Origin: Candidatus Ruania gallistercoris
Lineage (GTDB): Bacteria > Actinomycetota > Actinomycetes > Actinomycetales > Beutenbergiaceae
Assembly (NCBI GenBank): GCA_019116305.1
Contig: DXBY01000078.1
Span: 1 to 64,000, forward strand
Direction: 5' to 3'
Length of the DNA: 64,000 nt
This document shows positions 49,508-54,077 of this stretch, one piece after another (the stretch's first letter is position 1; each line of letters opens with the position of its first letter). A program made the translations under genes and the position numbers. The notes beneath the pieces were generated by a model. The model was given only the letters and a program-made list of their open reading frames with translations. It was not told where the DNA came from and did no database searches.

Positions 49508-50035
49508 TCAGCCGTGCCAGACGTGGCTGACGCCGAGGAGGAAGCCGCGCGCGCGTTCGGTGTGCGGGTAGTCGGCCAGCAGTGCCCAGAACTCCTCCCC
49601 GTGCCCCGGCTCGATCAGGTGCGCGAGCTCGTGCAGCAGCACGTAGTCGATCACCCACGGCGGCATCCCCTGGACCCGGTCGGAGATCCGCACCGTACCG
49701 CGCGCCGGGGTGCATGAGCCCCACCGGGTGTCCTGGTTCGCGGTCCACCGGATCGAGGTCGGCACAGCACGCTCGTCCAGGTACTGGCGCGCGAGCGCGG
49801 CTGCCCGGCGGGTGAGCTCGGCGCCGTTCGGACTGCGTCGCCGGTCGGAGTCGGCGAGCCGGGCAAGCATCCGTCGCACCCAGGTGTCCTCCTCAGCCCG
49901 GGTGAACCCACTGGGGATGGCCACGATCGTGCGGCCCGCCTCGCGGTAGGCGGAGACTGTCTTGCGACGGCGACTGCTGCGGCGCACCACCACACGGTGG
50001 CCGTCCACCTGACGCGCAGAGTCGCGGGTGCTCAC
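49508..50035 (-). CDS. YgjP/SprT-like metallopeptidase (DUF45)
   Basis: DYVLLHELAHLIEPGHGEEFWALLADYP HExxH motif. Confidence 0.9.
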   Translation of the reverse strand: MSTRDSARQVDGHRVVVRRSSRRRKTVSAYREAGRTIVAIPSGFTRAEEDTWVRRMLARLADSDRRRSPNGAELTRRAAALARQYLDERAVPTSIRWTANQDTRWGSCTPARGTVRISDRVQGMPPWVIDYVLLHELAHLIEPGHGEEFWALLADYPHTERARGFLLGVSHVWHG

Positions 50036-50134
50036 CGGACAAGCGTGGCACACCCCGTCTGGGTTATCCACAGCCTCGGCGGCCGGCGCGCAGGCGAGAG
50101 GTGCGGTGTGTCAGCCTCTCTGCAGGAGGAGGCG

Positions 50135-51163
50135 ATGATGCGGTTACGTCCCGGCTATCAGGTGTACTGGCACGGCCCCGGGTCCATGCAGATCGGTGTG
50201 GACCCCCGATGCGCGGTCGTGCTGGACCGGCTCAGCGAGGCCGAGCAGCGGCTGCTCACCGAGCTTCCGAAGATGATGGATGTGACCTGGCTCCAGGCAC
50301 GCGGCAACGAGCTCGGGATGCGCCCGGCGCAGGTGCGCACGCTGCAGCGCCGGTTGTCCCGCGCCGGGGTGCTCACCGCTGCCCCGGCCGCCGGGACACC
50401 GAGCGAGGACGAACGATACTGGCAGCTCGCCGAGGCCGCCGGGGTGAAACGCCCCGCCGACCGGCGCCGCGCCGTGGTCGAGCTCCGGCATGCCGATCCG
50501 GTAGGGCTACGCACCGCGCTGGTGCTGGCCCGGGCGGGTGTGGGCACCATCGTGCTCACCGATCCCGGGCAGGTGCTCGCCGAGGACATCGACACCGGCC
50601 TGTACGACGGCGACGATCTGGGCGAGCCTCGGTCCCGGGCAGGGCTGGGGGTGCTCCGCAGCGTGGCACCGCACCTGCGCACCAGCGCACCGGCGGGCAC
50701 CCGGCCGGACGTGGTGCTGCTGGTGGATCAGCTGGTGGTCGACCCGGTGCCGGTGCGCCGGTTGCAGCGCACCGGGCAGCCGTACCTGAACGTGCTGGTC
50801 ACCGAGGTGGCGGTGCGGGTGGGCCCCTTGGTGCGCCCCGGCAACGGTGCATGCAGCACCTGCGTGGAGCACTACCGCAGCTCGACCGATCCGCGCTGGC
50901 CGGCGGTGGCGGCACAGGCGGCAGTGCGCGGGCGGGGCACTGTGGAGCCCAGCCTGGGCTGGTGGGCTGCGGTCACCGCTGCGCAGCAGCTGCTCGCCCT
51001 GGTGGACGGGCGGGAGGTGGCTACCGAGTCGGCGACGGTGGAGCTGGCGGCCTGGGAGCCGATGCCGACCCGCACGGTGTGGGCACCGCACCCGGACTGC
51101 GAGTGCGCCGGGTCGCGGCAGGGTGGGACGGGCCCGTCCTCACGCAGCACCACGGCTGCGTGA
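50135..51163 (+). CDS. ThiF/E1-like fold protein (conserved actinobacterial)
   Basis: N-terminal winged-helix-like region, LRTALVLARAGVGTIVLTDPGQV, Cys pairs CSTC and CEC. Confidence 0.8.
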   Translation: MMRLRPGYQVYWHGPGSMQIGVDPRCAVVLDRLSEAEQRLLTELPKMMDVTWLQARGNELGMRPAQVRTLQRRLSRAGVLTAAPAAGTPSEDERYWQLAEAAGVKRPADRRRAVVELRHADPVGLRTALVLARAGVGTIVLTDPGQVLAEDIDTGLYDGDDLGEPRSRAGLGVLRSVAPHLRTSAPAGTRPDVVLLVDQLVVDPVPVRRLQRTGQPYLNVLVTEVAVRVGPLVRPGNGACSTCVEHYRSSTDPRWPAVAAQAAVRGRGTVEPSLGWWAAVTAAQQLLALVDGREVATESATVELAAWEPMPTRTVWAPHPDCECAGSRQGGTGPSSRSTTAA

Positions 51164-51505
51164 GGACGAGGCCGCGTACGGGTCGTTCTTGCGGGGGCGT
51201 CCGCGGCCGCGCTTGCGAGCGACCACGGCGCCGTCGACGAACACCTCACCACCCCAGACGCCCCACGGCTCCTGCCGATCGAGGGCGCCGGAAAGGCACT
51301 CGGCCTTCAGTGGGCAGTCGGCACACAGTGCCTTGGCTGCTTCGACGTCCTCGGTGCGCTCAGCGAACCAGAGGTCCTGGGTGGTGGTGTCCTGACACGG
51401 CAGCGGCTGGTCGGTGACACCGACGCTGTCGGTCAGCGCCGGGAAGGTCCAGCTGGTTGCCGAGCCTCCGCGGGACAGTTGATCGAGTACGGAGGTGTAC
51501 TGCAC
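51140..51505 (-). CDS. whiB7: WhiB7-like transcriptional regulator with C-terminal AT-hook
   Basis: Cys pattern (C...CADCPLKAEC), GVWGG motif, RGRGRPRK AT-hook; adjacent to uvrD2. Confidence 0.95.
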   Translation of the reverse strand: MQYTSVLDQLSRGGSATSWTFPALTDSVGVTDQPLPCQDTTTQDLWFAERTEDVEAAKALCADCPLKAECLSGALDRQEPWGVWGGEVFVDGAVVARKRGRGRPRKNDPYAASSSRSRGAA

Positions 51506-51576
51506 GACGTGCTCCTGGTGCGAGTTCTGGGTGGTCTGCCAGCCAGGTCCGTGCTTCCGGGAGAGGGGTGAGACCC

Positions 51577-51614
51577 GGAATGAGAAAAGCCACGGACCCG
51601 AGGGGTTCCGTGGC
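51577..51614 (-). terminator. Intrinsic terminator/attenuator in the whiB7 leader
   Basis: Minus strand GCCACGGAACCC-CTC-GGGTCCGTGGC then TTTTCTCATTCC, lying between the leader ORF and whiB7. Confidence 0.8.
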
Positions 51615-51639
51615 CGCTACGAAGCAGGTGTGATCTGCT

Positions 51640-51810
51640 CTAACGAAGTGCTGGCCCGGAACCCGGTGCGAGAGTGCCGCCAATGGCGCCGCCTGCGGCG
51701 GTCATGCCACGGAAGCCGGCGGTGCGATCGATGCGCGGGTAGGTGAACACCTGGGCATCGCGCAGTCGTGCGCCGGTCTTCGGCAGACTCATCGTGATGA
51801 TCATCTCCAT
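51640..51810 (-). CDS. 56-aa leader ORF (uORF) of whiB7
   Basis: Strong SD (AAGAAGGAGGTG) then ATG; MEMIITMSLPKTGARLRDAQVFTYPRIDRTAGFRGMTAAGGAIGGTLAPGSGPALR*; just upstream of the attenuator; below the 60-aa cutoff apparent in the supplied track. Confidence 0.75.
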   Translation of the reverse strand: MEMIITMSLPKTGARLRDAQVFTYPRIDRTAGFRGMTAAGGAIGGTLAPGSGPALR

Positions 51811-51887
51811 GGGGTATTCACCTCCTTCTTCTCATCGAACCGCTGGTGCTGGCTAGGCACGGCTCGTACCGGTCAGGAACGTTGACC

Positions 51888-51947
51888 ACCTTACGGGCAG
51901 TGCCCCGGGGGCCCAAGCCTTTTTCTGAACTTTTTTGAAGATTCTTT
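51888..51947 (-). promoter_or_regulatory. Predicted WhiB7-dependent promoter of whiB7 leader
   Basis: Minus strand: AT-rich AAAGAATCTTCAAAAAAGTTCAGAAAAAGGC, -35 TTGGGC (51911-51916), 17-nt spacer, -10 TAAGGT (51888-51893). Confidence 0.65.
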
Positions 51948-52031
51948 CCCGGGACGGGTTTTTCGCTGTGATTCCGGGGAAAACTCAGGTGCGTGAATCG
52001 GCGACTCAGGCCGCGCCGGAGCCGGCAGCGC

Positions 52032-54077
52032 TCAGTCAGCGACGCCGGCCGGATCCTCCCCGCGCACCACGGCGAGGATCTGCGCGCCGTAGGCCTCGAG
52101 CTTGGTCGGTCCGATGCCACGCAGCAGGGCGAGCTGGCGCAGCTGGCTGGGTTGGGCAGCGGCGATCGCCACCAGGGTGGAGTCGTGCAGCACGGTGAAC
52201 GCCGGTTTGTCGATGGCTTGTGCGGTGCTCGCCCGCCAGTCGCGCAGCCGTTCGAAGACCTCCGGGTCGGCGTCGTTCTCGGTCAGCGCCGTGGACAACG
52301 CATCGGCCCGGCCGGCCCGGGACCGCCGGGACTTGGGCGTGCGGGCGCGTTCCTCGGCCGGCCAGATGCCGTCCAGGAACCGGGTGTGCCTCCGGGTACC
52401 GCGCCCGCCCACGTTCCGGGCGCGGGCATAGGACAGGGACAGGTGTTCCCGAGCCCGGGTGATGCCCACGTACAGCAGTCGACGCTCCTCGGCGACCGCA
52501 TCCTCGGTCTCGGCCATCGAGATCGGCAGCAGCCCGTCACTGGCTCCCACCAGGAACACCGCATCCCACTCCAGCCCCTTGGCAGCGTGCAGGGAAGCGA
52601 GCGTCACGCCGTCGACCGTGGGGGCGTGCTGGGCGGAGGCACGCTCCATCAGCTCGGCCACCAGGTCCTCCAGCCGGGCCCCTCGGCTGGTGTGCAGGTC
52701 GTCCGCCAGCTGGACCAGCGCGTTCAGCGACTCCCACCGTTCCCGGACCGCGCCGCGGGCCGCCGGCGGTTCGGGCGCCCAGCCCGCGGTGGCGAGCACG
52801 TCCCGCACCGCATCCGGTAACGGCGTCTCCCCCTGGCTGCGGGCGGCGCCGCGGAGCAGCACGATGGCGTCCTTGACCTCCTTGCGGGAGAAGAACCGTT
52901 CCCCGCCCCGGACCAGGTACCCCAGACCGGCCTCGCTCAACGCCTGCTCGAACGCCTCCGACTGGGCATTGGTGCGGTACAGCACGGCGATCTCGCTGGC
53001 CGGCACCCCTCTGTCCACCAGCCGGCGAGCCTGCTCGGCCACCCCGCGTGCCTCTGCCTGGTCGTCGTCGTAGGCGGTGAAGGTCGGCGCCGGCCCGGTC
53101 GGGCGCTGTGCCTGCAGTTCCACGGTGGCATCCGGCCGAAAACGGCCGGCCCGGGCGAGCACCGCGTTCGCCAGGGACACCACCTGTGGGGTGGACCGGT
53201 AGTCCCGGACCAGGCGGATCACCGGTGCCTCCGGATAGGTCCGGGAGAACGTGGTCAGGTAGCGGGAGGTGGCACCGGTGAAGGAGTAGATCGTCTGCGC
53301 GGCGTCACCCACCACGCACAGCTCCTTCCGGTCCCCCAGCCAGAGGGAGAGCAGTCGGTGTTGCAGCGGAGACACGTCCTGGAACTCGTCCACCACGAAG
53401 TGCCGGTACTGCCGGCGTACGGTGTCGGCGACATCGCCGCGCTCGGCGAGGATGCCGACCATCAGCAGCAGCACGTCCTCGAAGTCGATCACGTGCCGGT
53501 CGGTCTTGGCGTCCTCGTACACCGAGAGCAGGCGGGCGATGGTGGTGGCGTCGAAGCCGGCCACCCCCTCCCGACCGGTCCGGGCCGAGGCGCGGGCGTA
53601 GTCGTCCGGGGTCACCAGGGAGACTTTCGCCCACTCCACCTCCGCGGCCAGGTCCCGGATCGCCAACCGGTCCACGGACAGGCCGAGCCGGCCGGCCGCC
53701 TCGCCGATCAGCGGTGCCTTGTGCTCCATGATCCGGGGCACGCTGCCACCGATCGTGCTGGGCCAGAAGTAGGACAACTGGCGCAGTGCGGCGGCATGGA
53801 AGGTCCGGGCCTGCACCCCGGCGACGCCGAGGTCGCGCAACCGTGAGCGCATCTCCCCGGCCGCGCGGGCAGTGAAGGTCACCGCCAGCACCGTGGTGGG
53901 GTTGTACACACCGGCGGCCACCCCGTGCGCGATCCGGTAGGTGACCGCCCGGGTCTTGCCGGTGCCGGCCCCGGCGAGCACGCACACCGGACCGGTCAGC
54001 TGCTCAGCGACGGCGCGCTGGTCCTCGTCGAGGGCATCGAGGAGAGCATCGGCATCGGGTGGGGCTGGTGTGGTCAT
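52032..54077 (-). CDS. uvrD2: UvrD-family ATP-dependent DNA helicase with C-terminal HRDC domain (UvrD2)
   Basis: CVLAGAGTGKTRAVTYRIAHG, VVDEFQDVSPLQ, VTLASLHAAKGLEWDAVFL, HRDC-like QLRQLALLRGIGPTKLEAYG. Confidence 0.95.
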   Translation of the reverse strand: MTTPAPPDADALLDALDEDQRAVAEQLTGPVCVLAGAGTGKTRAVTYRIAHGVAAGVYNPTTVLAVTFTARAAGEMRSRLRDLGVAGVQARTFHAAALRQLSYFWPSTIGGSVPRIMEHKAPLIGEAAGRLGLSVDRLAIRDLAAEVEWAKVSLVTPDDYARASARTGREGVAGFDATTIARLLSVYEDAKTDRHVIDFEDVLLLMVGILAERGDVADTVRRQYRHFVVDEFQDVSPLQHRLLSLWLGDRKELCVVGDAAQTIYSFTGATSRYLTTFSRTYPEAPVIRLVRDYRSTPQVVSLANAVLARAGRFRPDATVELQAQRPTGPAPTFTAYDDDQAEARGVAEQARRLVDRGVPASEIAVLYRTNAQSEAFEQALSEAGLGYLVRGGERFFSRKEVKDAIVLLRGAARSQGETPLPDAVRDVLATAGWAPEPPAARGAVRERWESLNALVQLADDLHTSRGARLEDLVAELMERASAQHAPTVDGVTLASLHAAKGLEWDAVFLVGASDGLLPISMAETEDAVAEERRLLYVGITRAREHLSLSYARARNVGGRGTRRHTRFLDGIWPAEERARTPKSRRSRAGRADALSTALTENDADPEVFERLRDWRASTAQAIDKPAFTVLHDSTLVAIAAAQPSQLRQLALLRGIGPTKLEAYGAQILAVVRGEDPAGVAD

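Follow-up and report, generated by a model that had tools for sequence, protein, structure and literature searches.

The window analysed here is a stretch of 64,000 nt, to which all coordinates refer; we read positions 51000-52300 directly, listed their open reading frames, and found the whiB7 leader on the minus strand. The whiB7 gene (51505-51143, minus) encodes a protein of 121 amino acids with a Whib domain (PF02467, 1.1e-13) and an RGRGRPRK AT-hook, and it lies in a whiB7 neighbourhood, with a gene for a UvrD-like (uvrD2-type) helicase adjoining it directly upstream. The closest genomes belong to Ruania, with Ruania albidiflava and R. rhizosphaerae as the named relatives, and whiB7 was present in all 7 congeners and in the 23 family members that were compared. 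In actinomycetes, including mycobacteria, WhiB7 governs intrinsic resistance to ribosome-targeting antibiotics. The set of leaders used for comparison was drawn from the family, the order and, elsewhere in the class, about 110 more genomes.

The leader contains a translated-looking upstream open reading frame (uORF; 51810-51640, minus) of 56 codons, which starts with ATG behind a GGAGG Shine-Dalgarno sequence (MEMIITMSLPK...APGSGPALR, then stop) and ends at the stop codon 51642-51640. Equivalents of this uORF were found in 148 of 161 leaders, and the gaps within the alignment of the relatives' uORFs were mostly multiples of three. Just 3' of the uORF, we identified an intrinsic terminator hairpin (GGCCACGGAACCCCTCGGGTCCGTGGCT, 51615-51588, minus, followed by TTTCTC) with a predicted energy of -20.6 kcal/mol (z=-3.9), which is kept across actinomycetes. 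Its 5' arm GCCACGGAA spans 51614-51606 and its 3' arm TCCGTGGC spans 51596-51589, the latter followed by TTTTCTC. Since this U-tract is short in the window and even poorer in many relatives, NusG or another factor may be required for termination. Within the order set (e.g. L047 and L058), a poor U-tract (TCGTGTTTC) commonly trails the conserved hairpin.

Upstream of the uORF, reading by eye revealed a putative sigma70-type whiB7 promoter (51916-51888, minus), with a -35 element TTGGGC (51916-51911), a 17-nt spacer and a -10 element TAAGGT (51893-51888); a strict consensus promoter scan made no call at TTGGGC-17-TAAGGT. An AT-rich tract (51936-51919) lies directly 5' of the putative promoter, and the congeners also carry an A-rich tract and then a TTGG element at this position. 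Since an AT-rich tract upstream of the -35 element is a trait of WhiB7-autoactivated promoters, the segment 51936-51888 is a plausible promoter of this kind.

Two further genes were observed in connection with whiB7. A gene for a ThiF-domain protein resembling TOMM leader-peptide-binding proteins (49997-51163, plus) converges on whiB7, and the 3' ends of the two genes overlap by about 20 nt. Moreover, a second WhiB7-like protein (58-59% identity, also with an RGRGRPRK AT-hook) is encoded in the window's genome (L002, G000:C246:4250-4519) and in its sister genome (L014, G007:C2:201151-201399); the gene is absent in the other congeners, and no recognisable uORF or terminator was found in its upstream region.

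Complementarity of uORF codons 33-35 to the terminator

The original prediction had located the uORF, the terminator and whiB7 where our direct reading and ORF list also place them, and had proposed that codons 33-35 (TTC CGT GGC; TTCCGTGGC, 51714-51706, minus; hereafter site A) act as the antiterminator strand. By direct reading, we confirmed that site A is exactly complementary to the terminator 5' arm over 9 nt, all in Watson-Crick pairs, and that this pairing and the terminator stem are mutually exclusive. If site A were the antiterminator strand, only a stall before about codon 28 would permit read-through. A match of at least 9 nt to the 13-nt arm arose in 1.8% of codon shuffles (P ~0.02) and in 26% of synonymous-codon permutations, and the match is thus only modestly beyond chance.

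We then compared site A among the leaders. In the sister genome L007, the corresponding sequence is CTCCGTGGC and 8 of the 9 pairs are retained, in keeping with the proposal; however, this retention is unremarkable because it is predicted by the 12% uORF divergence of the two genomes. The terminator 5' arm of R. albidiflava (L008) is identical to that of the window, but site A is replaced by unrelated sequence, indicating that site A was lost without a change of its partner, and in the remaining congeners site A was not found by leader comparison. The covariation between site A and the arm, by which the prediction was to be judged, was absent, and site A is conserved no further than the sister species.

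We also employed a swap test, in which the duplex energy with the cognate arm was compared with that of arms from other species for six zones of the leader. No cognate pairing was detected in the site A zone at the class level (one genome per family, 30 leaders, p=0.17) or the order level (58 leaders, p=0.39). A small near-family set (n=10) gave a nominal p=0.012 for the site A zone and p=0.05 for the zone of a second site, site B, which is described below, with the positions being non-homologous. When the intact leader was folded, the arm paired with site A at a probability of 0.000, and site A was otherwise folded within the uORF. It took the arm, at a probability of 0.6-0.7, only when site B was forcibly masked in silico. 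We rejected site A as the antiterminator strand on the grounds of its non-conservation, the lack of covariation and its lack of use in intact-leader folds, and we consider that role highly improbable. Its complementarity is probably incidental, and site A is at most a lineage-specific backup.

A covarying strand at the end of the uORF

About 50 bases downstream of site A, codons 49-53 carry the sequence GGGTTCCGGGCC (GGGTTCCG-GGCC; 51664-51653, minus; site B), which ends 10 nt before the uORF stop codon. Site B pairs with GGCC-A-CGGAACCC (51615-51603) to form 12 bp with one bulged A, and its duplex energy is -25.8 kcal/mol vs -19.1 kcal/mol for site A. In intact-leader folds, the arm paired with site B at a probability of 0.89-0.92. 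The structure encloses an inner hairpin, GAGCAG-ATCACAC-CTGCTT (51640-51622, minus), whose first base is also the last one of the uORF stop codon, and the whole antiterminator (-32.7 kcal/mol, z=-5.4) is predicted to be a more stable hairpin than the terminator.

A segment complementary to the arm was found in the last uORF codons, about 40-50 nt 5' of the terminator, in the congeners and in most other relatives. The equivalent of site B is GGCTCCGC with the arm GCGGAGCC in Occultella, and GACTCCGC with GCGGAGTC in Cellulosimicrobium and Oerskovia. Exact cognate 6-mers were present in 62 of 139 site B zones, as compared with 40 of 834 non-cognate combinations. Restricted to one genome per family, the exact 6-mer test gave 5 matches vs 2.6 expected and was not significant (p=0.075). 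The weakness of this test is probably due to shifts of the arm register between families, and we therefore relied on the duplex-energy swap test. In the zone 28-65 nt 5' of the terminator, the cognate arm performed better than swapped arms with p=0.0002 (one genome per family, 30 leaders). Among the 58 leaders of the order set, the same zone was the strongest (z=-7.9), followed by the overlapping 10-45 nt zone (z=-5.6), and it was the only one of the six zones that was significant in both the family and the order sets.

Covariation was assessed on an alignment of 117 leaders that was built from sequence alone. The site B pairs scored 0.217, while shuffled alignments scored 0.129 ± 0.009 and slid pairings at most 0.133. 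There were 82 two-sided changes vs 39 in the shuffles, and these counts are conservative because MAFFT splits site B with gaps. One position separates the two structures: the terminator leaves A51606 as a bulge, and the antiterminator pairs it with U51661. The base is thus unconstrained by terminator pairing, and wherever it is bulged, covariation at this position is not explicable by the terminator, whereas it is expected of an antiterminator. Among the 117 leaders, the equivalent column pair was C-G in 26, G-C in 19 and U-A in 18; in some relatives, a neighbouring base is bulged instead. As judged from these comparisons, covariation at the bulge base is the cleanest single piece of evidence for site B as the antiterminator. 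Site B, unlike site A, thus provides a covarying antiterminator from uORF sequence that is mutually exclusive with the terminator, and the alignments argue that this strand is kept at one position across the class Actinomycetes.

One arrangement would have site B as the main antiterminator and site A as a spare strand, confined to the branch of Ruania that holds the window and L007; in its favour, site A can pair with the arm when site B is unavailable, and both sister genomes keep site A. However, site A lacks conservation, it is folded away inside the uORF, and a ribosome masking site B would sit downstream of site A, so that site A could act only behind the ribosome. We regard such a redundant arrangement as improbable and take site B as the antiterminator strand in what follows.

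Anchoring to the stop codon and predicted switching

The length of the uORF varies widely (5-95% range 43-111 codons) and the peptide is poorly conserved, but the distance from the uORF stop to the terminator is only 10-28 nt, with a median of 21 and quartiles of 18-23, in the 148 of 161 leaders with a uORF, where a 60-nt window was allowed. In our model, the inner hairpin and at least some of site B would lie under a ribosome that has reached the stop codon. We simulated ribosome positions by masking, for which the free-energy treatment is crude. Before the 3' arm is made, the predicted sequestration of the arm in the window was 0.91 for stalls at codons 1-44 and fell from codon 45 onwards. 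The original prediction that a ribosome must stall early in the uORF should therefore be widened to any stall before about codon 45, or no translation at all. Sequestration above 0.7 was predicted for 126 of the 148 leaders with an upstream stall, for 44 with a shuffled upstream region, and for none with the ribosome at the stop. In the equilibrium ensemble of the complete RNA, the terminator is still favoured, to different extents (P 0.43-0.87 with the ribosome stalled upstream). Since equilibrium can favour the terminator, we infer that the switch must act kinetically and that the order of synthesis matters.

Across the class, a C-terminus of the WSPPV-stop type is common to the uORFs of many families (e.g. 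leaders L118, L148 and L123). This motif coincides with the antiterminator RNA elements CCTGGAG and CCGGTC, suggesting that RNA pairing may drive WSPPV, and the Pro-Pro before the stop could slow termination and prolong masking.

Proposed mechanism and relation to known attenuators

Our observations comprise the anatomy of the leader, covariation between site B and the arm, a fixed distance from stop to terminator and predicted folding energies; for the window's organism, we infer the use of the promoter, the masking by the ribosome and the induction. It is very likely that the locus is a whiB7 transcription attenuator of a Ruania-like actinomycete in which the site B antiterminator is masked by a ribosome at the stop codon. 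RNA polymerase would transcribe the 56-codon uORF and then the intrinsic terminator. During normal translation of the uORF, a ribosome at or near the stop would mask site B (51664-51653) and the inner hairpin, which would leave the terminator 5' arm free, and transcription would end before whiB7. When translation is slowed, stalled or never begun, as under antibiotics or amino-acid starvation, site B would be free as the 5' arm emerges. The 12-bp pairing could then form the antiterminator of -32.7 kcal/mol while the terminator 3' arm is yet to be made, and RNA polymerase would continue into whiB7.

Control at the level of translation was also considered. Translational attenuation via a uORF is common among Gram-positive resistance genes, and alternative structures might likewise gate the whiB7 ribosome-binding site. 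However, more than 80 nt separate the terminator end (51588) from the whiB7 start (51505), no conserved element extends to the whiB7 Shine-Dalgarno sequence, and transcription in mycobacteria drops at the uORF end (PMC4128351). Such gating is exceedingly improbable here, and the evidence points to transcription attenuation through site B.

The ribosome-mediated attenuation in the original prediction agrees with published work on whiB7/wblC, while its specific site A pairing found no support in covariation or in fold use. The whiB7/wblC uORF attenuator has reportedly been described in Streptomyces and Mycobacterium by Lee, Lee and Roe in 2022, Burian and Thompson in 2018 and Dinan in 2014. Attenuation of whiB7/wblC through a uORF, with an antiterminator formed from uORF and terminator sequence, is already documented in papers and reviews (PMC4128351, PMC11550727, PMC9618640, PMC10727445, PMC13393426). 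The window shares with these attenuators a translated uORF, then a Rho-independent terminator, and, as proposed here, relief by stalled translation (PMC11550727, PMC9618640, PMC10727445, PMC13393426). It differs from them, as far as the summaries in later papers describe them, in its local sequences, and Ruania is without the CCTGGAG/CCGGTC inner elements.

Like the trp and M. tuberculosis ilvB1 attenuators (the latter described in PMC13236596), the proposed switch would use a ribosome at the stop to mask the antiterminator strand and a stall to free it. However, MEMIITMSLPKTGARLRDAQVFTYPRIDRTAGFRGMTAAGGAIGGTLAPGSGPALR contains no cognate regulatory codon run, homopolymeric or biased, of the trp/ilv type. 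Together with the poorly conserved peptide, this suggests that general translation, rather than one tRNA, is sensed. The ARE-ABCF attenuators (lmrC, vgaA, vmlR, are5sc) are similar in that an antibiotic-stalled uORF switches the terminator to an antiterminator, but the cases described in PMC12421871 have very short leader peptides with start-codon stalling, whereas the uORF of the window has 56 codons. Moreover, those attenuators control an ABC-F protein, and that of the window controls a transcription factor.

To the known attenuation, the present analysis adds a correction of the antiterminator strand named in the original prediction, covariation across the class that extends to the bulge base, and the anchoring to the stop codon. 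The map fixes the antiterminator strand, and a base left unpaired by the terminator but paired by the antiterminator offers a single-base test of the mechanism. The anchoring of site B also indicates the ribosome position required for repression. Antibiotic stalling inside the whiB7 uORF had not yet been tested according to a 2025 paper (PMC12121999).

A conserved hairpin upstream of the uORF

Between the putative promoter and the uORF, the leader carries a further hairpin (51865-51836, minus) with an outer stem CGAGCC/GGTTCG, a 4-nt 3' bulge, an inner stem GTGC/GCAC and the loop CTAGCCA. Across 27 leaders, the 7-nt loop CUAGCCA is near-invariant, the inner stem mostly measures 2-4 bp and the 3' bulge 3-5 nt. 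The outer stem showed two-sided changes at all six modelled pairs, with 86% of cells paired, and its covariation score was 0.466 vs 0.191 in shuffles. Curated Rfam covariance models gave no relevant match in the window region and six relatives, and the hairpin has no entry there. A search for a conserved downstream partner of the CUAGCCA loop gave none.

A covariance model built for the hairpin gave the whiB7-leader copy as the best match in nearly every family genome, and another match precedes whiB7 in one genome of another family. The hairpin is specific to whiB7 leaders, in this family and in some relatives. The other genome-wide matches that were inspected lay within or beside unrelated genes and were discarded as chance. 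Judging by its place directly in front of the ribosome-binding site of the uORF, the hairpin may influence translation of the uORF or stability of the transcript. We tentatively propose that it might be a second, undescribed regulatory RNA, which, by binding a protein or the ribosome, might set the frequency of uORF translation, and with it the set-point of the switch.
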